Assembly (NCBI RefSeq): GCF_024704385.1
Contig: NZ_JAJDFX010000002.1
Coordinates: 1,674,001-1,738,000, forward strand
DNA length: 64,000 nucleotides
Direction of reading: 5' to 3'
Origin: Cellulomonas sp. P24
GTDB lineage: Bacteria; Actinomycetota; Actinomycetes; Actinomycetales; Cellulomonadaceae
Every line of letters starts with the position of its first letter. The stretch's first letter is position 1. The notes beneath the pieces were generated by a model. It saw only the letters and a program-made list of their open reading frames with translations, searched no databases and was not told where the DNA came from. The translations under genes were made by a program, and so were the position numbers. Positions 36,572-39,398 of this stretch are shown here, one piece after another.

Positions 36572-36635
36572 TACGGCAGACTGGGCCCGATCCCAGACGT
36601 CGCACAACAGGTTGAGAAGGTCGGTGAAGGACATC

Positions 36636-37313
36636 GTGGACGACGCCGTCGTGCTCTCTGCTCCCTTGTTCTCCCACATGGAGCCCGAGGCGTCGCGAGC
36701 CCTCCTGTCGTCCATGACACCCTTGGAGTTCGCTCGCGGCGCGGCCATCTTCCACGAGGGCGACCCGGGCGACCGGCTCTACGTGATCGCCAGCGGGAAG
36801 ATCAAGCTCGGGCGCCGCTCGAACGATGGCCGCGAGAACCTTCTCGCGGTGATCGGCCCGGGCGAGATGTTCGGCGAGCTCTCGCTGTTCGACCCGGGTC
36901 CGCGGACCGCGTCCGCGACGGTCGTCGCCGACGCTGTGGTGCTCGAGCTCGACCACGCCGAGCTGAACACCTGGCTCGCCGACCACCCGAAGGTCGCGAT
37001 CCACCTGCTCCAGGCCCTCGGCCACCGGCTTCGCCGCACCAACGAGACGCTCGCCGACCTGGTCTTCTCCGACGTCCCCGGTCGGGTCGCCAAGGCCCTG
37101 CTCGACCTCTCGACGCGGTTCGGCGAGCCGGTCGACGACGGTCTGCGCGTCGCGCACGACCTCACCCAGGAGGAGCTCGCCCAGCTCGTCGGTGCCTCGC
37201 GGGAGACGGTCAACAAGGCCCTCGCAGACTTCGCCGCCCGCGGCTGGGTCCGCCGCGACGGCCGAGCCGTCGTCCTCCTCGACCTCCCCCGCCTCGAACG
37301 CCGAGCCCGCTAA
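36636..37313 (+). CDS. crp: Crp/Fnr-family transcriptional regulator (cAMP receptor protein type)
   Basis: 225 residues, as in mycobacterial Crp. The cyclic-nucleotide domain has FHEGDPGDRLYVIASGKIKL and the phosphate-binding cassette IGPGEMFGELSLFDPGPRTASA, with the Glu and Arg that hold cAMP. The C-terminal winged helix is DLTQEELAQLVGASRETVNKAL. GTG 36636 is preferred, with AAGGA just upstream; GTG 36624 is an alternative adding four residues. Neighbours nth upstream and ridA/whiB downstream match the conserved locus. Confidence 0.94.
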   Translation: MDDAVVLSAPLFSHMEPEASRALLSSMTPLEFARGAAIFHEGDPGDRLYVIASGKIKLGRRSNDGRENLLAVIGPGEMFGELSLFDPGPRTASATVVADAVVLELDHAELNTWLADHPKVAIHLLQALGHRLRRTNETLADLVFSDVPGRVAKALLDLSTRFGEPVDDGLRVAHDLTQEELAQLVGASRETVNKALADFAARGWVRRDGRAVVLLDLPRLERRAR

Positions 37314-37347: not shown

Positions 37348-37421
37348 CGCCGAGATCGTGAGTGCGCGCCGAGATCGGGGGTTCCACCGTGCGATCTCGG
37401 CGCGCCGTCACGATCTCGGCG
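37348..37421. repeat. Two-tier palindrome, left copy
   Basis: Outer stem 37348-37361 with 37408-37421 (14 bp perfect), a 2x2 internal loop, inner stem 37364-37377 with 37392-37405 (14 bp perfect), and a 14-nt loop at 37378-37391 ending CGTG. It begins 35 bp after crp and ends 126 bp before the AbiEi/DUF559 gene. Architecture is the same as the element at 38624. It might also end crp transcription. Confidence 0.9.
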
Positions 37422-37547
37422 GGCGGTTGGCGGCTGGCGGCGGCGGTTGGCGGGGTGAGGCGTCCACAAGTGGGGCGGCGCGCGGGTGGCGCACTGAGGC
37501 GGGTGGCGCGCCGAGGGTGACGGGTCTCGATCTGCGACTACTGGGGC

Positions 37548-38597
37548 ATGTTCGTCACGTTGAACGGGTACCTGTCGCCATCGGCACCGAACGCCGACGC
37601 AGGACCGCTGCCCTCGTCGTCCGTCGTGCTCGCGCGCGAGATCGACCCGTCCGACCTGCGGCACGCCGTGCGGTCCGGCGCGCTGGTGCGCATCCGCCGC
37701 GGGGCGTACCACTCGCGTGCGGAGCCGACGGCGTCTGATCCGATGATCGGCGCGCGGCGGCGCATCGCGGCAGTCGCGCACCAGCTGACGGCCGACTTCT
37801 GGTTCAGTCACGAGTCGGCCGCACTCGTCTGGGGGCTGTGGCTCTCCACACCACCGGCCCAGACGCACCTGATCCAGACGGTGAACCCGAACCGTCACAC
37901 GGACCGAGGCATCCGTCGCCACTGCTCCGAGCTCCCGCTGCGCGACCGCGACCAGCACGCCGGCGTCCCCGTGACCTCGCTCCTCCGCACCGCGGTCGAC
38001 TGCGCGATGTCACTGCCTGGACCACAAGGGCTCGCCGTCGTCGACTCAGCTCTCCGGCTCGACGCATCGGTGGTCGACACATCACCGTGCGGGACCGCGC
38101 TGGACCGAGCCGGTCAGGGTACGTCGAGACGTCCGTCGACGTGCCAGGCGGTGCGAGACGAGCTGGAGGCACGCCTCCGCCGGTCCGCCGGTCGTCGAGG
38201 TGTCCGACGAGCACGGGTCGTCGCCGCCTGGGCGGACGAGGGGTCCGAGTCGCCCGGCGAGTCGATGACACGGCATGCCCTGCTCAGCGGTGGGTTCCCC
38301 CGACCGACGACCCAGGTCCTGGTCGCAACGAGGATCGGCGTCTTCCGCGTCGACCTCGGCTGGCCGCAGTGGAAGGTCGGGATCGAGTTCGACGGGTTCG
38401 TGAAGTACGCGGACCCCCGAGCGGGCAGCGCTGCCGATGCCGTGTTCGCCGAGAAGAGACGGCAGGACGCCCTCGAGGAGGCCGGCTGGATCATCGTCCG
38501 CGTGACGTGGGCCGACCTGAAGGACCCGTGTGCACTGGCCCCTCGCATCGCGGCTACCGTCCGCCGACGCCGCCCCACGTTCCCCGCGATGCCGTGA
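37548..38597 (+). CDS. AbiEi-type winged helix plus DUF559 nuclease-like protein
   Basis: 349 residues. The N-terminal part (REIDPSDLRHAVRSGALVRI then RRGAYHSRAE, about residues 30-60) is the AbiEi-antitoxin winged helix; a middle region HESAALVWGLWL follows. The C-terminal 84 residues are a DUF559/Vsr-like fold: D269 in FRVDLGWPQWKVG, E280 and D282 in GIEFDGFVKY, K303 in FAEKRRQDALEEAGW, then IIVRVTW, an arrangement like PD-(D/E)XK nucleases. No toxin partner is adjacent. It sits between two matching palindromes (ends at 37421 and 38624) and interrupts the usual crp-to-ridA order. Nuclease activity and any link with the palindromes are inferred. Confidence 0.82.
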   Translation: MFVTLNGYLSPSAPNADAGPLPSSSVVLAREIDPSDLRHAVRSGALVRIRRGAYHSRAEPTASDPMIGARRRIAAVAHQLTADFWFSHESAALVWGLWLSTPPAQTHLIQTVNPNRHTDRGIRRHCSELPLRDRDQHAGVPVTSLLRTAVDCAMSLPGPQGLAVVDSALRLDASVVDTSPCGTALDRAGQGTSRRPSTCQAVRDELEARLRRSAGRRGVRRARVVAAWADEGSESPGESMTRHALLSGGFPRPTTQVLVATRIGVFRVDLGWPQWKVGIEFDGFVKYADPRAGSAADAVFAEKRRQDALEEAGWIIVRVTWADLKDPCALAPRIAATVRRRRPTFPAMP

Positions 38598-38623
38598 CCC
38601 GCGGCGAACCCCCCGCCCCAACG

Positions 38624-38695
38624 CGCGAACTCGTGACGGCGCGTCGATCTCGTACATCAGAACGTGCGAGATCGACGCGCAGTCACGAGTTCGCG
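38624..38695. repeat. Two-tier palindrome, right copy
   Basis: Outer stem 38624-38637 with 38682-38695 (14 bp perfect), a 1x1 internal loop, inner stem 38639-38652 with 38667-38680 (14 bp perfect), and a 14-nt loop 38653-38666 ending CGTG. It starts 26 bp after the AbiEi/DUF559 stop. Stem bases differ from the left copy at several paired positions, yet pairing is kept. Confidence 0.9.
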
Positions 38696-38745: not shown

Positions 38746-39225
38746 TCAGGGGTGGGTGAGCTCGACGATGAGCTCGACCTCGACGGGAGAGTCGAGCGGG
38801 AGGACCGCGACGCCGACGGCGCTCCGCGCGTGGATGCCTGCCTCGCCCATGACCTCACCGAGGAGCTCGCTCGCGCCGTTCACCACACCGGGCTGACCGG
38901 TGAAGTCGGGGGCGCTCGAGACGAATCCGACGACCTTGACCACACGCAGACGGACGTCCTCGTCGACGACGGAGAGGACCGCCGCCAGCGCGTTCAGCGC
39001 CGCCGTGCGCGCAAGTCCCTTCGCCACTGCCGGATCCACCAGGTCGGCACCCACTCCGACCTTGCCGGTCGTCGACAGCGCACCCGCCACGAACGGCAGC
39101 TGGCCCGAGGTGTAGACGTAGTCACCCGACCGCACCGCAGGGACGTACGCCGCGACAGGTGCAGCGACCGGGGGCAGAGTCAGCCCGAGCTCGGCGAGTC
39201 GTGCGAGCAGCGCGGCGCGGTTCAT
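38746..39225 (-). CDS. RidA/YjgF-family enamine deaminase
   Basis: 159 residues. RidA proteins hydrolyse reactive enamine/imine intermediates from PLP enzymes. Seen here: YVPAVRSGDYVYTSGQLPFV, the central NALAAVLSVVDEDVRLRVVK, and the C-terminal RSAVGVAVLPLDSPVEVELI where the substrate-binding Arg of this family lies. The ATG overlaps the DUF4177 stop (ATGA), so the two are co-translated. The pair lies between crp and whiB as in mycobacteria. Confidence 0.92.
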   Translation of the reverse strand: MNRAALLARLAELGLTLPPVAAPVAAYVPAVRSGDYVYTSGQLPFVAGALSTTGKVGVGADLVDPAVAKGLARTAALNALAAVLSVVDEDVRLRVVKVVGFVSSAPDFTGQPGVVNGASELLGEVMGEAGIHARSAVGVAVLPLDSPVEVELIVELTHP

Positions 39226-39398
39226 CGTGCGCCCTCGGGCTGCCCACCGGTCGGGCGCTTGAGGTACGCGACGAGCCCGGCATCGGGCCCCTGCACGACC
39301 TGGACGAGCTCCCACCCGTCGGCGCCCCACTGGTCGAGGATCGCCTTGGTGGCATGGATGATCAACGGGACGGTCGCGTACTCCCAGGTGGTGGCCAT
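39222..39398 (-). CDS. DUF4177-family small protein
   Basis: 58 residues from ATG 39398: it starts MATTWEYATVPLIIH and has WGADGWELVQVVQG and VAYLKRP, the WEYxxxP...GWELV pattern of DUF4177. No known function. TAGGCT (39405-39410, minus strand) is six bases upstream, giving a leaderless DUF4177-ridA transcript; that box overlaps the last codon and stop of whiB. Its stop overlaps the ridA start by four bases. Confidence 0.88.
   Translation of the reverse strand: MATTWEYATVPLIIHATKAILDQWGADGWELVQVVQGPDAGLVAYLKRPTGGQPEGAR

Follow-up and report, generated by a model that had tools for sequence, protein, structure and literature searches.

Genes that encode an AbiEi-like part joined, in the predicted structure, to a Vsr/I-Bth0305I-like nuclease are generally bracketed by two hairpins, and further copies of these hairpins lie dispersed in the genomes that carry the gene. 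The scattered copies in gene-bearing actinobacterial genomes suggest an undescribed selfish repeat system, with an enzyme unrelated to the known one. We think it rather probable that gene and hairpins form a two-part genetic element resembling REP/RAYT, as proposed in an earlier note made from this DNA alone, which gave as its alternative that the protein targets these hairpins; the enrichment of hairpins at the genes and the tracking of the cognate gene by dispersed copies both support that proposal.

The gene and its hairpins in the window

The window is the whole stretch of DNA that was analysed, 64,000 nucleotides of Cellulomonas sp. P24. It holds a single gene between two hairpins, H1 and H2 (Table 1). 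The sole Pfam matches of this gene were AbiEi_4 and MTES_1575, both under the curated cut-offs (23.6 bits for AbiEi_4, against a cut-off of 25), and the NCBIfam search gave nothing. It was matched by the AbiEi models of PADLOC (best 8.6e-12); one weak non-AbiEi match of PADLOC fell in locus L236. The AlphaFold2 model (pLDDT 86.9, pTM 0.86) has two modules. In this predicted structure, residues 23-230 resemble AbiEi 6y8q (rmsd 6.3 over 167 residues), and residues 235-343 resemble the catalytic domain of I-Bth0305I, 3r3p (rmsd 2.8, 97 of 97 residues); the nuclease module also resembles Vsr (Z 7.4). The best Foldseek E-value, 4.7e-4, was that of Rv2827c; 3r3p had a TMt of 0.76 but an E-value of 0.11. 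Both domains announced in the earlier note, a winged helix and a Vsr-like nuclease, were recovered by structure, the first also through PADLOC. Residues E238, D269, E280 and D282 are invariant across 25 chosen aligned sequences, and K286 is present in at least 90% of them; these residues may correspond to the E-D-x-H-D catalytic pattern of EDxHD homing endonucleases.

Neither Pfam nor structure comparison detected a Y1/HUH tyrosine transposase in the gene product, and the window has no AbiEii (DUF1814) toxin gene beside it, the flanks being of Crp and RidA type. Named relatives of the gene occur in Cellulomonas, Cellulosimicrobium, Sanguibacter, Promicromonospora, Isoptericola and others. The gene was almost absent from phages (one record, 31% identity) and plasmids (three records, 27-33% identity), and no mobile carrier of the unit was found in the PADLOC, phage and plasmid searches.

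Table 1. Positions in the window of the gene, its neighbours and the two hairpins
Feature	Position	Strand	Remarks
Left flank, Crp/Fnr-type regulator gene	36629..37313	+	start not proven
Hairpin H1	37348..37421	.	5' of gene; 14-nt loop
H1 copies of motif CGAGATCG	37351-37358 and 37370-37377; inverted copies 37392-37399 and 37411-37418		19-bp period
Gene for predicted AbiEi-like part and Vsr/I-Bth0305I-like nuclease	37548..38597	+	349 aa; start codon not proven
Gene part for residues 23-230	37614..38237	+	predicted structure aligned to AbiEi antitoxin 6y8q, Z 9.2
Gene part for residues 235-343	38250..38576	+	predicted structure aligned to I-Bth0305I catalytic domain 3r3p, Z 9.6
Hairpin H2	38624..38695	.	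3' of gene
H2 four motif copies	38626-38633, 38645-38652, 38667-38674, 38686-38693		
Right flank, RidA/YjgF-type gene	38746..39234	-	

H1 and H2 have the architecture originally described for them: a 14-bp outer stem, a 2x2 or 1x1 mismatch, a 14-bp inner stem and a 14-nt loop ending in CGTG. Their folding energies as single-stranded DNA, -42.3 kcal/mol for H1 and -47.1 kcal/mol for H2 (z -7.8 and -10.0), were equalled by none of 200 shuffles; a few loop bases pair too in the predicted fold of H2. The 64-kb window contains no further hairpin with at least 24 of 30 arm matches and a loop of 3 to 20. Rfam recognised no family at the hairpins of the window and seven loci, and the 140.5 kb searched gave just one tRNA and a c-di-GMP riboswitch.

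Hairpins at homologous genes

A homologue of the gene is present in 134 of 150 genomes of the family. We took 80 of 98 further homologous genes, chosen without regard to hairpins, with 5 kb on either side where the contig allowed (18 were omitted, some for small contigs), and searched them without a model for hairpins with 24-bp arms and loops of 3 to 30. At 21 of 24 matches, 75 hairpins lay in the 63.8 kb that are no more than 400 nt away from a gene edge, one lay inside a gene and eight were found in the remaining 675.6 kb. The density was 1.175 per kb at gene edges compared to 0.0118 per kb elsewhere, or about 100-fold. Hairpins occupied both sides of the gene in 21 of these loci, one side in 32 and neither in 27. 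Both sides were occupied in 42 of the 80 loci at 19 of 24 matches, and in 55 at 18 of 24 (one side in 21, neither in 4), where the background rose to as much as 0.27 per kb and the enrichment was 8-fold. The 5' hairpins mostly lie 100-300 nt before the start of homology, and the 3' hairpins mostly 25-75 nt past the stop codon. A named sample of 80 loci, which overlaps the first in species and is not independent of it, gave 1.03 compared to 0.016 per kb at 21 of 24 matches (63-fold).

Across the class to which the window belongs, a profile search found a match in 217 of 296 genomes. For the other families of the class, 40 listed loci from 40 genomes were analysed. The density at gene edges was 0.475 compared to 0.0113 per kb at 21 of 24 matches (42-fold), and 1.139 compared to 0.045 per kb at 19 of 24, with both sides occupied in 13 loci, one side in 10 and neither in 17. 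Enrichment in this sample was 25- to 42-fold at 19 to 22 of 24 matches and 7-fold at 18 of 24; at this laxest threshold it was just 7- to 8-fold across the three samples. Bracketing by hairpins is general among the homologous genes. The clustering of hairpins at AbiEi/DUF559 genes, which the earlier note had proposed as a check, is borne out by strong enrichment across genera and families; the earlier note had named as refutation ordinary terminators with no enrichment near DUF559 genes, and what was found is the roughly 100-fold enrichment at 21 of 24 matches.

Several of the listed homologues outside the family (for example, G360, G368 and G443) have an internal TGA or TAG stop, and broken gene copies seem common there. 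At four loci of two genera in family f26 (L346, L347, L351 and L356, in genomes G349, G168, G375 and G251), the hairpins share a TTTCTCG core; mostly they have a 4-nt loop, TGCA or CGCA, a style that differs from the type with 19-bp repeats.

Among 83 gene-flanking hairpins of the named set with 20 of 24 matches or better, 54 have a clear direct repeat within one arm (at least 8 of 9 matches). Its spacing is 19 bp in 38 hairpins, 20 bp in 13 and another value in three, that is, 19 or 20 bp in 51 of 54. Shuffled arms reached such a match in 20 of 415 cases, none at 19 bp and two at 20 bp. The layout of 14-bp stems, small mismatch and 14-nt loop put forward in the earlier note is true for the hairpin family of the window genome; the general pattern is that of four motif copies, and the shared architecture is better described by their 19-20 bp period. 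Some copies are runs of the 19-bp unit, and others form clusters. At L309 (G137:C13:2860-2974) and at G117:C6:204708-204841, one arm is expanded to a tandem array of four to five 19-bp units, as if this unit, rather than the whole hairpin, could multiply.

The two hairpins of a gene are paired with each other. Among the 51 of 80 loci with both hairpins at 18 of 24 matches, the 5' hairpin matched its own 3' partner better than any other in 41, and this partner ranked 2 to 34 in the remaining ten; the median score was 76 for own pairs compared to 18 for other loci. Hairpin and gene also diversify together: hairpin similarity tracks protein identity (Mantel rho 0.327, none of 2000 permutations as high, over 47 loci and 1081 pairs, four loci having been dropped as their own two hairpins scored under 40), a correlation that arises in part because common descent contributes. 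The coefficients by domain, 0.30 for the N-terminal and 0.29 for the C-terminal part, do not distinguish which of the two sets the motif. Paralogues in one species carry different motifs (for example, L215 compared to L273, and L234 compared to L236).

Dispersed copies, and sites with and without the gene

The genome to which the window belongs (4.42 Mb, two contigs) has at least 24 places with a full-length hairpin, H1 and H2 included, as found with a covariance model built from three copies, for which the 150 best of 2169 candidates were scored; two weak, short matches of a covariance model were dropped from this set. With 24 copies in 4.42 Mb, simple arithmetic gives a chance of about 2e-6 that a given gene has a copy on each side at a distance of 250 nt or less. 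BLAST yielded just one more clear copy because the hairpin arms diverge, and a covariance model was therefore needed to find the copies. The aligned copies follow the consensus CGAGATCG-N11-CGAGATCG-N14-CGATCTCG-N11-CGATCTCG, with a 1-nt insertion in two copies, and a short motif is present four times in each hairpin, as a direct pair with a 19-bp spacing and as an inverted pair. Compensated stem changes, claimed earlier from H1 and H2, hold on this wider set: in the 24-copy alignment, both partners have changed in 15 of 27 stem pairs, and covariation scores 0.328 compared to 0.111 in shuffles (none of 500 as high), values biased toward paired sites by the selection of the copies with a hairpin model. 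The 12-nt flanks of the 24 copies, inspected by eye, show no GTAG, and CGTC in 2 of 24, hence no conserved tag of REP type.

The 22 copies besides H1 and H2 are mainly intergenic, in co-directional, convergent and some divergent gaps according to a crude gene caller; four of them overlap called frames, which are perhaps over-long at their start, and many dispersed copies sit, by the same crude calls, shortly 3' of stop codons. No homologue of the gene was found in 16 stretches of 9-19.5 kb each around these 22 copies. The window genome has two homologues by single-sequence search and three matches by profile search; the second homologue has one hairpin of different sequence 68 nt past its stop codon, and none upstream. 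In the same-genus relatives, the first covariance model found two places in one genome and none in the other, and the second model gave one weak match in G002. Two hairpins of the window family lie 141 bp apart at G000:C2:2245379 and 2245520 (L047:4380-4588), between genes called as convergent and with no gene between them. L040:2680-2754 (G000:C2) holds a c-di-GMP-I-GGC riboswitch (Rfam RF03167, above threshold), and a dispersed hairpin follows about 1.5 kb later. A G001 hairpin (L055:4243-4310) stands beside a likely orthologue of the gene that neighbours a G000 hairpin (L045:5000-5067), with its stem strongly altered; old hairpin copies seem to persist and drift.

Dispersed copies that lack the gene track the presence of the cognate gene elsewhere in the genome. 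We counted the motif pair GMTGCGTC-N11-GMTGCGTC in 17 Cellulosimicrobium genomes, where one intact hairpin may give two matches and a tandem array more. There were 5 matches in G133, 25 in G117, 17 in G137, 18 in G049, 18 in G064, 5 in G145 and 7 in G149. Five of these genomes (G133, G117, G137, G049 and G145) have the cognate gene, and the other two (G064 and G149) have a site emptied by gene loss. The remaining ten genomes gave no match in seven cases and one match in three; the reversed pattern, used as a control, gave one match over all 17. By listed places, the matches away from the gene or emptied site numbered 3 in G133, 23 in G117, 12 in G137, 15 in G049, 16 in G064, 6 in G149 and a single one in G145, a gene carrier whose genome is 83% complete. 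These genomes are related and not independent, and shared ancestry inflates both this tracking and the Mantel test; G097 and G111, however, have flanks as close as those of the carriers, yet one match each.

A second motif, the GAGATCTGG pair, was found in five of the 150 family genomes (40, 49, 7, 6 and 3 matches; control, 0), and three of these, G032, G063 and G122, hold the cognate gene (loci L230, L247 and L259). In the two others, G116 and G110, no gene adjoins the 3 and 2 copies of this type that were inspected, and other hairpins flank the single homologue examined per genome. At L414-L416 (G032:C1 and C4), many GAGATCTGG copies are clustered in one region and resemble clustered REP arrays. 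Among 28 hairpin-centred loci chosen from model matches, three hold the gene, as expected of dispersed repeats. The search for copies genome-wide that the earlier note had called for thus yields the same answer in Cellulosimicrobium and for the GAGATCTGG motif.

Genomes rich in hairpins and lacking the gene had been named beforehand as contrary evidence. One such case was found. In 16 family genomes there was no protein match at E 1e-3 (single query, at most 13 candidates scored), and three of them have hairpin-model matches: at least 34 in G040, 6 in G134 and 1 in G107. G040 is chiefly the exception to the link between gene and hairpins; at least 14 of its hairpins are near-uniform, and 14 stretches around its hairpins hold no homologue. 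The G134 and G107 matches, together with the copies in G116 and G110, are lesser cases. At L418, L423 and L430 of G040 (contigs C94, C89 and C45), where no cognate gene was found, the stems are nearly identical and the loops differ. Each of these three contigs has a hairpin centre no more than about 110 nt from its start, and the gene may therefore be missing from the assembly.

The comparison of filled and empty sites, also suggested in the earlier note, was informative at one orthologous site of the 17 Cellulosimicrobium genomes, aligned by DNA matches to one locus. Four genomes have hairpin, gene and hairpin there (G133, G117 and G049, plus G033 with another motif). The gene is deleted in two: G064 retains two hairpins and a gene remnant, and G149 two hairpins and no gene. 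Eight (G097, G111, G087, G128, G105, G141, G123 and G077) have 70-136 nt of filler that includes a single hairpin, the arms of which match at 14-18 of 18 positions, and G009, G137 and G145 were not placeable. At the empty sites, the lone hairpins vary in sequence and could be native terminators. At one dispersed hairpin site, the hairpin is of the cognate type in G117, G049, G149, G064 and G133 and decayed in G097; G111, G141, G128, G087, G105 and G077 carry other hairpins, and five genomes are without one anchor. A clean insertion of a single hairpin, sought at this site, was not found, the relatives having other hairpins and no clean gap. In the window's own genus, crp and ridA are adjacent in two relatives, with 132 and 65 nt between them and no gene. 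Neither gap has a clear hairpin, and the full model finds nothing convincing. A search for half a hairpin was as well matched by 13-58 of 100 shuffles in G001; in G002 it was matched by 2 of 100 for one query and by 23 and 17 of 100 for the other two, and this suggestive remnant was discarded as evidence.

Known systems and possible explanations

REP/RAYT elements (REPtrons) also consist of a resident enzyme gene with flanking palindromes, many gene-less copies and repeats that co-evolve with the enzyme, according to the available parts of PMC3733652 and PMC8266576; here, there are palindromes on both sides (H1 and H2) and 22 gene-less dispersed copies besides these. The enzyme there is a Y1/HUH transposase, whereas here it is an AbiEi-like part with a Vsr-like nuclease; the palindromes there measure 20-40 bp and carry a conserved tag, GTAG (or CGTC), on one of their ends, whereas here no such tag is conserved and the length is about 70 bp, with the motif present four times at a spacing of 19-20 bp (PMC3733652, in part). 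The actinobacteria are not named as a phylum with REP/RAYT in the available parts of PMC3733652 and PMC8266576. The unit thus follows REP/RAYT logic, but it falls outside that class, since it has neither a Y1 transposase nor a conserved GTAG tag. The 2013 survey, as far as its available text goes, ties REP palindromes to RAYT transposases and reports CGTC-type REPs without a known enzyme (PMC3733652). The nuclease fold is likewise that of MTES_1575-type restriction endonuclease domains and of the mismatch endonuclease Vsr. Vsr is part of mismatch repair. The MTES_1575 domain is described within a large HEPN fusion protein, with no hairpin association in the portion available (PMC3710099), and the available text of PMC12907096 deals with a Vsr-like protein in Caulobacter and mentions DUF559 once. 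Among the matches listed from the open-access PMC literature, no report ties DUF559/AbiEi genes to hairpin repeats.

We infer that the protein cuts and mobilises the hairpins. The gene would be kept between two palindromes of about 70 bp, each with four motif copies (two direct at 19-20 bp, two inverted), and the protein would bind its own motif through the AbiEi-like winged-helix part. Probably as a dimer, it would recognise the palindrome, since AbiEi proteins bind inverted repeats (PMC7319586, in part) and I-Bth0305I dimerises on its target (PMC3943268, in part). It would nick the palindrome, or its extruded or single-stranded hairpin form; repair or replication would then copy hairpins to intergenic sites, and after loss of the gene the hairpins would remain. 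If true, a restriction-type enzyme would have arrived independently at the REP/RAYT way of life, and the existence of a second enzyme class, unrelated to the first, would mean that palindromes and nucleases form partnerships repeatedly. Very common orphan genes of AbiEi/DUF559 type (a profile match in 217 of 296 class genomes) would gain a function, and natural pairs of enzyme and recognition site of about 70 bp would become available for direct testing. The wider claim, of a widespread undescribed class of actinobacterial replicators in which palindromes with 19-20 bp units are spread and maintained by a resident AbiEi-Vsr-type nuclease with a lineage-specific motif, is one on which we would give even odds.

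The main rivals are autoregulation and homing, and one protein may combine two or more of these roles. The hairpins could be operators for AbiEi-style autoregulation, possibly also terminators, with the dispersed copies as a regulon and the nuclease domain otherwise employed, which we judge unlikely. AbiE type IV toxin-antitoxin systems (AbiEi, Rv2827c) share an N-terminal DNA-binding part followed by another domain, and AbiEi binds inverted repeats adjoining its own gene: the sites are 23-bp inverted repeats in the promoter of the antitoxin, of which Rv2827c binds four (available part of PMC7319586). The mostly upstream position of the 5' hairpin, 100-300 nt before the start of homology, and the many dispersed copies shortly after stop codons (crude gene calls) would suit this. 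However, the bracketed unit has no AbiEii toxin, an extra nuclease domain, and hairpins on both sides and dispersed; the second, matching hairpin lies past the stop codon, mostly by 25-75 nt, the near-perfect palindrome arms of about 30 bp exceed what an operator needs, tandem arrays and clusters of copies also occur, and the nuclease residues are invariant. Homing, in which the nuclease would cut gene-less hairpin sites and repair would copy in the gene and a second hairpin, is more doubtful still. With EDxHD homing endonucleases, an allele that contains the element no longer has an intact recognition site. If that site is the hairpin, it is intact here, both beside the gene, in the filled state, and as further motif pairs elsewhere in gene-bearing genomes, and such copies would therefore keep being cut; moreover, G149 has both hairpins and no gene, no intron or intein was seen, and the AbiEi-like part is a fusion. 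What speaks for homing is that I-Bth0305I, an EDxHD homing endonuclease, is the closest solved fold to the predicted nuclease part (Z 9.6), that it acts as a dimer on a target of nearly 60 bp and is present or absent at an orthologous site (PMC3943268, in part), and that one hairpin occurs at the eight gene-less sites and two at the four gene-bearing ones.

That the gene is a mere passenger, for instance a defence gene, in a hairpin-delimited cassette moved by another recombinase seems highly improbable to us. PADLOC does list AbiEi among defence proteins, and at one site the unit is present or absent as a cassette; against this, the hairpin motif is specific to the gene and diversifies with it, and the dispersed copies track the AbiEi/nuclease gene itself. 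Ordinary terminators or chance palindromes are scarcely credible as an explanation. In species that lack the gene, single hairpins do stand 3' of genes at the corresponding site, and a hairpin with 18 of 24 matches is no rarity in these genomes, at 0.2-0.3 per kb. Hairpins are, however, found upstream of the gene too and contain internal repeats of 19-20 bp; we disfavour terminators on account of the matching of motif to gene and of hairpin density, which at 21 of 24 matches is 0.012 per kb in the rest of the loci and 1.18 per kb at gene edges.
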